53,342 nt of DNA from assembly GCA_016192545.1 (NCBI GenBank), contig JACPTX010000048.1:1-53342 (forward strand), written 5' to 3'. The position numbers and the translations under genes were made by a program. The notes under the pieces are model-generated. The model did not search any database and was not told the DNA's origin. It saw only the letters and a list, made by a program, of their open reading frames with translations. Below, one piece after another: positions 51,361-53,342 of this stretch; the stretch's first letter is position 1, and the number at the start of each line of letters is the position of its first letter. Source of the DNA: Candidatus Omnitrophota bacterium (GTDB taxonomy: Bacteria > Omnitrophota > Gorgyraeia > Aquiviventales > Aquiviventaceae).

Positions 51361-52695
51361 ATGAGCCGCGACGCGCCGCTCATCGCCATCTCGGTTCCGC
51401 TGGGCTACTACGCGCGCAACCTGCTGCGCAGCGGCATCCTGGAGCATCTCCTCGCCGCGCAGCCGCCGGTGCAGGTGCTGATCCTGAGTCCGGCCGCCGC
51501 CGAGGCCGAGTTCCTCGCGGAGTTTCAGCGTGACGGGCAGGTGCGGTGCTCGCCGCTGCCTGGGATTCCCCCGGCCCCCACGCTGCTGGACCGCGCGTAT
51601 TGGAAAACGCGATTGATGGTTCGCCGCTCGCGCGCGGCGTCGTTGGGGTTGGCCGCCCTGGGCCAGCAGGCGTATTTCCGCCGGCAGCCGCGCTACTACA
51701 CGGCGCTGCTGGCGGGGGAGCGGCCCTCGCTCGTGGTGACCGGCTCCCCGGGCTTCCACTCGAACCGCGATATTCCGATCATCCGCGAAGCGCAGTGGCA
51801 CGGGGTGCCGGTGCTGTGCCTCGTGCACAGCTGGGACAATCTGGCGACGCATCCCGTGACGCCGACCCGCCCGGATCACCTCGCGGTCTGGAACGGCGCG
51901 ATGCGCGAGGAAGCGATCGCGAAGCATTTCTTCCCGCCGGAGGCGGTGTCCATCGTCGGCCCGCCGCATTTTGATCTGTATCAGGATCCGGACACCTTCG
52001 TGCCGCGGGAGGCGTACTGCCGGGGCCTGGGCCTCAATCCGGCCAAGCGAATCCTCGTCGTGGCCGCCAGCGACAACACGTTCATCGACAACACGTTCGT
52101 GCTCGATCTGCTGCGGGACGCCTTCAGCGCCGGCGCGCTGTCGCCCTCGACGGCCCAGGTCGTCGTGCGGCCGCATCCGCTCGATACGACCGGGGCGTTC
52201 GACAGGTACCGGGGCGATCCGCTGTTCGCGTTCGATCATCCCGCCCGCTGGTCGGATGCGCTGCGCTGGAACCCGGACCGCGGGGAGATGCATGAGCTTG
52301 CGAACACGTTGAAGCACGGCGATGTGATTCTCAACGTCGCCTCGACGGTCGCCCTGGAAGCGGCCATCCTGGACCGGCCGATCGTCAACGTCTGCTTCAG
52401 CCCCACGCAGCCGGCGCGGTTCAAGCAGTGGGTCCTCGAGTTTCACTACGGCGGGCACTACAAGCCGATCAAGGACCATGCGTGTTCCGTCATGGCGATG
52501 AGCGCGCGCGAGCTGGTCGCCGGCGTGCAGACCTACCTGGCGCATCCGGAGCGGCATCGCCGCGAGCGGCGGGCGATGGCGGAGGCGCTGTGCTACCGTC
52601 TGGACGGGCAGGCGAGCCGCCGCGCCGCCGAGCTGATCCTGCGGCTGGCGGGCCATCGCGCGGGCTCCGGCCACGCGGCGGCGGCGGCGCGATGA
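51361..52695 (+). CDS. GT-B-like/CDP-glycerol transferase-like glycan protein
   Basis: A 444-residue cytosolic protein with a two-lobed GT-B appearance. It has LVVTGSPGFHSNRDIPIIREAQ, CLVHSWDNLATHPV, a helix with VSIVGPPHFDLYQ, then ILVVAASDNTF, VVVRPHPLDTTG and GDVILNVASTVALEAAILDRPIVNVCF. The last segment recalls CDP-glycerol glycerophosphotransferases and UDP-GlcNAc 2-epimerases. I place it as a glycosyl- or glycerol-phosphate-transferase of surface glycan assembly without assigning a substrate. Its stop codon begins the four-way inverted-repeat element. Confidence 0.68.
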   Translation: MSRDAPLIAISVPLGYYARNLLRSGILEHLLAAQPPVQVLILSPAAAEAEFLAEFQRDGQVRCSPLPGIPPAPTLLDRAYWKTRLMVRRSRAASLGLAALGQQAYFRRQPRYYTALLAGERPSLVVTGSPGFHSNRDIPIIREAQWHGVPVLCLVHSWDNLATHPVTPTRPDHLAVWNGAMREEAIAKHFFPPEAVSIVGPPHFDLYQDPDTFVPREAYCRGLGLNPAKRILVVAASDNTFIDNTFVLDLLRDAFSAGALSPSTAQVVVRPHPLDTTGAFDRYRGDPLFAFDHPARWSDALRWNPDRGEMHELANTLKHGDVILNVASTVALEAAILDRPIVNVCFSPTQPARFKQWVLEFHYGGHYKPIKDHACSVMAMSARELVAGVQTYLAHPERHRRERRAMAEALCYRLDGQASRRAAELILRLAGHRAGSGHAAAAAR

Positions 52696-52850
52696 TCCCA
52701 CACCCTGCGCCGGCTCCGCCGAAGGCGGAGCCCGATGAGGGATGCCGATGACCATGAGATGCCATGACAACCGACACCATCGCTGGCTCATCGTCACGGC
52801 GGCCTGTGTGGGCAGGTTGCCAAGCCGCCGTGAGGCGCAGGGTGTGGGAT
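52695..52850 (+). repeat. Four-way-junction inverted-repeat element
   Basis: Stem P1: 52695-52711 pairs with 52834-52850, 17 perfect pairs. P2: 52712-52720 with 52724-52732, nine pairs, GAA loop. P3: 52733-52739 with 52787-52793, seven pairs. P4: 52794-52803 with 52824-52833, ten pairs, with a further GGCA/TGCC hairpin in its loop. Each stem abuts the next with no unpaired base, making a perfect four-way junction. It exactly fills the gap between the upstream stop and the next ATG. It could be an RNA or a folded mobile DNA. Confidence 0.85.
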
Positions 52851-53342
52851 GACGGCGCGGAGGCGGTGGCTTGTCGGGATCGTCGCCGTCGCGGTGGCCC
52901 TGCGCATCTGGGCGGTGCTGCACCTGCCGCCGGAGGAGCAGCTGCCGGTCAATGACGCCCGGGGCTTTGACACCATGGCCATGAGCCTTCTCGCGGGGCG
53001 CGGTCTGTCGTATCCGGAAGGGGGCTCGGAGGCATTCTATCCGCTGCCGCCCGGCCCGACGTCGGAATTCGCGCCGGTCTTCCCGGCGTTCCTGGCGGCC
53101 GTCTACACGGTCTTCGGCCATGAGTACGCCGCCGCCCGCATCGTCCTGTCCATCGTGGAGTCCCTGACGTGCGCGTTCCTCTATGGGATCGGGGCCTGCT
53201 GGGGCGCGCCGGTGGTCGGGCTGCTCGCCGCCGCCATCGCAGCCGTCTATCCGCCGTTCATTCATTTCAGCTATTACGGCGGGCCGGGGTTTCTGCTGTC
53301 CGAAGGGATGTTCATGGTCCTGCTGGCCGCGGGCGTCTGGTG
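52849..53342 (+). CDS. GT39-like membrane glycosyltransferase, N-terminal part (cut by window end)
   Basis: The first 164 residues of a polytopic membrane protein, open at the right edge. ATG 52849 overlaps the end of the four-way element. The start is MTARRRWLVGIVAVAVALRIWAVLH, then a periplasmic-loop segment LPVNDARGFDTMAMSLLAGRG carrying the Asp expected in GT39/ArnT-type enzymes, and EFAPVFPAFLAAVYTVFG. Four hydrophobic segments are visible. It is a third GT39-type protein in the window but less similar to the other two than they are to each other. Confidence 0.8.
   Translation, partial: MTARRRWLVGIVAVAVALRIWAVLHLPPEEQLPVNDARGFDTMAMSLLAGRGLSYPEGGSEAFYPLPPGPTSEFAPVFPAFLAAVYTVFGHEYAAARIVLSIVESLTCAFLYGIGACWGAPVVGLLAAAIAAVYPPFIHFSYYGGPGFLLSEGMFMVLLAAGVW

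Follow-up and report, generated by a model that had tools for sequence, protein, structure and literature searches.

The gap between two open reading frames near the end of the window (the whole analysed stretch of 53,342 nucleotides) is, judged by sequence comparison, one copy of an abundant and apparently so far undescribed family of mobile DNA in Candidatus Omnitrophota. The comparisons brought out a dispersed family with exact target duplications, empty sites, a four-way fold, a reading-frame rule and longer members bearing a nuclease gene. Taken as a whole, these elements are very probably mobile crosses, non-autonomous in the short copies, that target ATGA and carry a relay frame from one neighbouring gene to the next, with a GIY-YIG nuclease as their likely mobiliser.

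An earlier note on this DNA had described four stems (P1, P2, P3 and P4 of 17, 9, 7 and 10 pairs) at 52695-52850 with zero unpaired bases at the junction, and this structure was reproduced. The fold is the same on either strand (the count of 17 pairs in P1 includes A52695-T52850), its z-scores are -8.2 (DNA) and -7.2 and -9.1 (RNA), and 0/200 shuffles reached equal stability. The claim that it exactly fills the gap holds for the limits of the gap, from the upstream stop TGA (52693-52695) to the downstream start ATG (52849-52851), but not for the outermost P1 pair, which lies outside the element. The borders set by relatives define a true element of 154 bp at 52696-52849 (TCCCACACCCTGCGCC...GGCGCAGGGTGTGGGA; plus strand, as are all window features given here) with a P1 of exactly 16 bp, and A52695 and T52850 are parts of the two TGA copies of the target duplication (52693-52695 and 52850-52852). 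The P1 arms are the terminal inverted repeats (52696-52711 and 52834-52849), between which follow the hairpins P2 (52712-52732, nine pairs; GGCTCCGCC-GAA-GGCGGAGCC), P3 (52733-52793; CGATGAG at 52733-52739 with CTCATCG at 52787-52793, around a 47-nt loop with several ATGA motifs) and P4 (52794-52833; TCACGGCGGC at 52794-52803 with GCCGCCGTGA at 52824-52833). The upstream ORF (444 aa, 51361-52695) has no Pfam match, and its TGA stop is the left duplication copy, forming ATGA together with A52692. The downstream ORF (52849-53342) runs off the window and has a weak match to PMT_2 (mannosyltransferase; E 3e-4, below the Pfam cut-off). Its ATG had been noted as paired into P1; P1 does touch this codon, the A of which is the last element base, but the significance of the contact lies in an ATGA overlap rebuilt on both sides. 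Insertion into TGA keeps the left ATGA, and the final element A and the right TGA make a second one. A reading frame begun at the left ATG can then stop at the right TGA only for element lengths of 2 mod 3. The window copy has a length of 1 mod 3, and its relay runs in two overlapping steps: mini-ORF 1 (52692-52751; MIPHPAPAPPKAEPDEGCR) starts in the ATGA of the upstream stop, and mini-ORF 2 (52748-52852; MTMRCHDNRHHRWLIVTAACVGRLPSRREAQGVG) starts in the ATGA of the mini-ORF 1 stop and ends on the right TGA duplication, overlapping the downstream ATG in a further ATGA.

A nucleotide search gave partial matches in 28 of 59 relatives, mostly of the same host family, and the relatives have their ends in common (TCCCACNNCCTG...CAGGNNGTGGGA). 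The end motif ATCCCACNNCCTG was found in 26 of the 27 genomes of the window's host family, with up to about 80 ends per genome, compared to one match for the reversed control pattern. In the named collection, hosts were Candidatus Omnitrophota and two Elusimicrobia records, and among 145 genomes sampled evenly from the phylum the strict two-ended pattern was confined to the window's host family and one family of another class. Hairpins of other phyla, which are unrelated and lack target duplications, were left out of the family, and searches of phages, plasmids and viral contigs found no relatives. Six SBAZ01 records labelled "Planctomycetales bacterium Bin_23_1_1" (L083, L105, L113, L125, L154 and L163) match G010, a member of the window's host family, and the SBAZ01 genome is probably a mislabelled Omnitrophota genome.

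An exact 3-bp target duplication flanks 113 of 129 copies (135 of 160 in the enlarged set), and only two copies have a 4-bp one. The triplets are mainly TGA/TCA and TAA/TTA, mostly TNA, and further include CCA, CGA, CGC, TTG, TGG, TCG, ACA and CAA, a variety which argues for true target duplications. With 16-bp terminal inverted repeats, exact target duplications, unrelated loci and no transposase of their own, the copies have the properties of miniature inverted-repeat elements (MITEs). A minimal copy (L112, 3832-4170) consists of the two ends and a 5-base loop, 29 bp in all, and is still flanked by TGA duplications. The earlier note had offered a small non-autonomous mobile DNA folding as a single strand as one of its two readings, and this is the one borne out: copies are many, their flanks carry 3-bp duplications, orthologous sites occur empty, and each of the four stems shows compensatory changes. 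It had proposed looking for second copies, covariation and duplicated flanks; copies and covariation are both present, the opposite of the outcome it had named as refuting, and exact 3-bp duplications flank most relatives.

No close orthologue of the gene upstream in the window was found in the host family, and the empty site was therefore sought at a second copy in the same genome, between genes read as mreD and mrdA. In four other genomes of the host family this junction consists of ATGA alone; an element fills it in the window's own genome and in two further genera. Of these three filled junctions, two read ATGA-element-ATGA, and the remaining one (L182) shows a TGG duplication. TGA within an ATGA stop/start overlap or a start codon is the preferred target: for 63 of 90 TGA copies with a length of 2 mod 3, an ORF of at least 60 codons ends on the left TGA and another of at least 60 codons begins on the right ATG, an arrangement found at 8.2% of control ATGA sites. 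By their reading frames, both neighbouring genes are kept intact. Other copies lie in frame within conserved genes, namely those for a NuoF-type FMN domain (own genome), ComEC, UvrA and a phosphodiesterase; in L039 (384-2537, minus strand) a NuoF/HydB-like protein has a 26-residue element insert within its FMN domain. Most TAA copies occupy TATAAT-like sites (-10 boxes), where the first element T restores the hexamer; these sites are likely promoters, though the upstream -35 boxes are mostly weak. Copies at TATAA/T, often with TGNTATAAT, are L059, L069, L070, L079, L103, L120, L132 and L171.

Nine members of 314-356 bp with TGA duplications encode an SLX1/UPF0213-like GIY-YIG nuclease in the relay frame, five in the window's host family (L277, L318, L335, L336 and L337) and four in the other class (L354, L360, L369 and L374). 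Their length is 2 mod 3 in 9/9, and the ORF opens on the left ATG, or GTG in L374, and closes on the right TGA duplication; the nuclease gene thus has neither a start nor a stop codon of its own, as both come from the target. Eight folded nuclease copies pair 15-16 of the 16 P1 positions and have three-helix cores with 0-3 unpaired bases. L337, read by hand, has an end pair C-G instead of T-A and GTG as its right start. In L277, a 317-bp hold-out copy placed between LpxI and a rhomboid protein, the relay frame is a GIY-YIG domain (PF01541, E 1.1e-12). An element-borne protein matched UPF0213 with E 1.8e-7, and UPF0213 and SLX1 were the nearest solved structures by sequence and predicted fold (model pLDDT 78.5; best Foldseek E about 1e-3); PHROGs and NCBIfam gave no name for these proteins. 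Among 40 small GIY-YIG proteins placed in a tree, eleven element-borne ones formed one clade (support 99/96), counting L337, which carried the label "free" in the tree. Four of eight checked nuclease copies lie at a start codon on which no long upstream ORF ends. L331 (601-917) and L334 (590-920) encode proteins of the same clade; each abuts the end of another element (GTGGTGGGG/TCCC) and lacks an exact duplication, and they are probably nested or tandem copies. Short copies can apparently be deletion derivatives of nuclease members: L162 (113 bp) matches both halves of L354 and is thus an internal deletion of an L354-like copy.

A different view of these long members is that the GIY-YIG gene is a passenger, and that an unseen DDE transposase moves all copies in trans. 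DDE transposases typically act on terminal inverted repeats and make short target duplications, and GIY-YIG copies are rare compared to short ones and absent from the window's own assembly. However, the GIY-YIG nuclease is the only protein found between element ends, its element-borne forms from both classes fall into a single clade and have residues in common that are conserved, and a transposase binding the terminal repeats would not need a conserved four-way junction. Furthermore, as candidate mobilisers both DDE_Tnp_1 and Y1_Tnp were rejected, having no element ends nearby and no link to copy number. A search for long partners of 330-6000 bp, made in the first 0.8 Mb of loci, gave none that was convincing. 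We regard the passenger view as unlikely, if the most serious of the alternatives, and favor the nuclease as the mobiliser. The own genome (86% complete) yielded no element-borne GIY-YIG gene that could serve as mobiliser of the window copy.

The frame rule was counted in several sets of copies. A length of 2 mod 3 was found for 73 of the 93 TGA copies in the strict set, and the frame is open in 69 of the 73, while shuffling of the cores left on average 31.7 open frames of 73 (maximum 42). In the enlarged set, the length is 2 mod 3 in 90 of 113, and 86 of the 90 have a mini-ORF that begins at the left ATG and ends on the duplicated TGA; the same cores reversed in place were open in 42/90, with discordant pairs at 44:0. 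These raw counts are inflated by copies related by descent, and the kinship was addressed by taking one copy per similarity cluster, which gave 56/72 with a length of 2 mod 3 and 52/56 open. The prediction was also written down before examination of a hold-out of 25 new copies, drawn from more genomes than the three named and excluding the copies already used: 16 of its 22 TGA copies had a length of 2 mod 3, and 15 of the 16 were open. Alone, the hold-out is weak on orientation, since 9/16 were open when reversed too. Among copies with a length of 1 mod 3, which include that of the window, the two-step ATGA-linked relay was present in 5/10 compared to 0.78 expected. The relay is not obligatory, as 27 of the 113 TGA copies lack a direct one, and the copies with TAA duplications (77, 78, 84, 95, 101, 103 and 109 bp) break the length rule.

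These counts bear on a simpler explanation, by which the family is an ordinary MITE with a TNA/TGA target preference and the open frame a by-product of GC-rich palindromes and the target, its translation being irrelevant. Few stops are expected in GC-rich sequence, the duplications are mostly TNA and the terminal repeats are fixed, all of which suits such an element. The same composition, however, kept far fewer frames open in the shuffled and reversed cores than in the observed ones, and the length rule, which the TAA copies do not follow, is left unexplained. We thus find it improbable that the frame is incidental and hold to a relay frame that is presumably translated.

Across the family, P1 is 16 bp in all copies, with compensatory changes at positions 7, 8 and 13-16; at position 17, 6% of copies are still paired, which places the junction sharply. 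The core comprises exactly three helices in 129 of 156 copies, and in 116 of 156 these leave at most three bases unpaired, compared to 2.1 in shuffles, in agreement with the earlier judgment that the window structure is far beyond chance. Thirteen members of the window type, when aligned, show both-sided changes at 17 pairs, with a covariation score of 0.229; the score was 0.101 when shuffled, and slid pairings reached 0.074 at most. The copies share their ends and fold and hardly any core sequence, and the loops are not conserved. G-U pairs make up about 1% in P1 and 2.2% in the outer core stems; stem variation almost exclusively among Watson-Crick pairs suggests a constraint on DNA rather than RNA. 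This speaks against the other reading of the earlier note, a structured RNA controlling the downstream (GT39) gene. The RNA fold is strong, and coupling by unfolding is plausible for a cis-acting RNA because P1 occludes the downstream start region. However, the copies have no tie to a gene, being dispersed at unrelated genes and within ORFs and promoters, and a riboswitch-like family is not indicated by cores that are unrelated in sequence, unconserved loops and so few G-U pairs; an Rfam search with the window element gave no match, the best score being far below the gathering score. A cis-regulatory RNA is therefore a very improbable reason for the structure, and a REP-like palindrome moved by a Y1 (RAYT/IS200-IS605) transposase is hardly credible, for Y1_Tnp genes occur in 19/27 genomes but are missing from the own genome and other high-copy ones, no element ends lie near Y1_Tnp loci, and the target duplications, which REP/RAYT elements lack, are exact.

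On the mobile-element reading, the proposed sequence of events is as follows. The element would exist as a DNA cross in which three abutting hairpins close the 16-bp P1, and would insert with a 3-bp duplication, by preference in the TGA of an ATGA overlap or a start codon. The left TGA would still terminate the upstream gene, and the last element A with the right TGA would provide a new ATG and a new ATGA overlap for the downstream gene. Termination-reinitiation at ATGA overlaps is established, as is coupling in which a start region is unfolded (PMC6728339), and we infer that both operate at the element: the frame from the left ATG to the right TGA would pass the ribosome on, keeping the downstream gene coupled, and relay translation would melt P1 and free the AGGTG/ATG start region. 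Most likely, given its homology and association with the element, the SLX1/UPF0213-type nuclease of the longer, presumably autonomous members recognizes the folded four-way junction, nicks or cuts P1 at its base and opens the target with a 3-nt stagger; the short copies, that of the window included, would be MITEs moved by it in trans. Nuclease copies would be found on ATGA/GTGA because they need a start and a stop codon, and short copies would keep the frame through selection for coupling. We know of no GIY-YIG protein that makes a 3-bp duplication. Whether the family amounts to a new kind of DNA transposon, a cloverleaf element whose SLX1-like GIY-YIG nuclease recognizes its own junction, captures the start of the target and a duplication-made stop and restores coupling, with deletion derivatives keeping the relay frame, is in our estimate evenly balanced.

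Several known systems resemble parts of this picture. Rickettsia palindromic elements (RPE; PMC10969869, PMC2229807) are likewise short (about 100-150 bp) palindromic mobile DNA with an open frame, inserted in frame in conserved genes, as are the copies in the NuoF-type, ComEC, UvrA and phosphodiesterase genes; this is a likeness by description. In contrast to the Omnitrophota element, no target duplication is established for RPE in the review's table, nor does the review describe targeting of stop/start overlaps, a relay ORF, a fixed four-way junction or a parent bearing a nuclease. Bacterial MITEs such as Correia/NEMIS, RUP and ERIC are also small and dispersed with terminal inverted repeats and target duplications, some with autonomous relatives, whereas the present element has three conserved internal hairpins, shared ends and fold with hardly any common core, a length set by the reading frame, and no DDE transposase that we could find. 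SLX1 is a branched-DNA nuclease, and the element nuclease resembles the SLX1 and UPF0213 families in sequence and predicted fold, with the difference that its gene is locked in a foldable element of 314-356 bp and takes start and stop from the target. GIY-YIG genes have been linked to palindromic repeats as mobile units, termed "palindrome-associated transposable elements". These have a GIY-YIG gene and palindromes in common with the Omnitrophota element, and are not known to show start/stop capture or a relay frame; if they match in these as well, the Omnitrophota family would be a variant of that kind. The ATGA junction and coupling principle are those of termination-reinitiation between host genes (PMC6728339), which a mobile element here appears to exploit and rebuild. 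The literature searched contained no report of the element family, of stop/start-overlap targeting or of a mobile-element relay frame, and none on Omnitrophota repeats was found.

The element appears to colonize the densest and least permissive part of a genome, the 4-bp overlap of co-translated genes, with little predicted harm: its reading-frame arithmetic keeps both genes and, if translated, the hand-over of ribosomes as well. Over 100 insertions provide natural replicates for tests of termination-reinitiation. The nuclease-bearing members link UPF0213/SLX1-like branched-DNA nucleases, the role of which is largely unknown, to a DNA that folds as their kind of substrate, and this link suggests a testable mechanism of transposition without a classical transposase. 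In Omnitrophota, the family accounts for many unannotated "intergenic" structures and in-frame protein inserts.

Similar arrangements were also observed outside the element family. In the own genome (L319, 1340-1830, contig C37), a UPF0213-type GIY-YIG gene is bracketed by a different palindromic repeat (CGTGGTTCGACTCGCTTCGCTCGCTCACCACGAGCC); its protein falls outside the element clade and perhaps represents a second type of GIY-YIG/palindrome element. GIY-YIG ORFs in L355, L367 and L368 lie between long inverted repeats of other kinds (e.g. TGTCATTCCCGCGAAAGCGGGAATCCA), which suggests that the association of GIY-YIG genes with inverted repeats is a general one.
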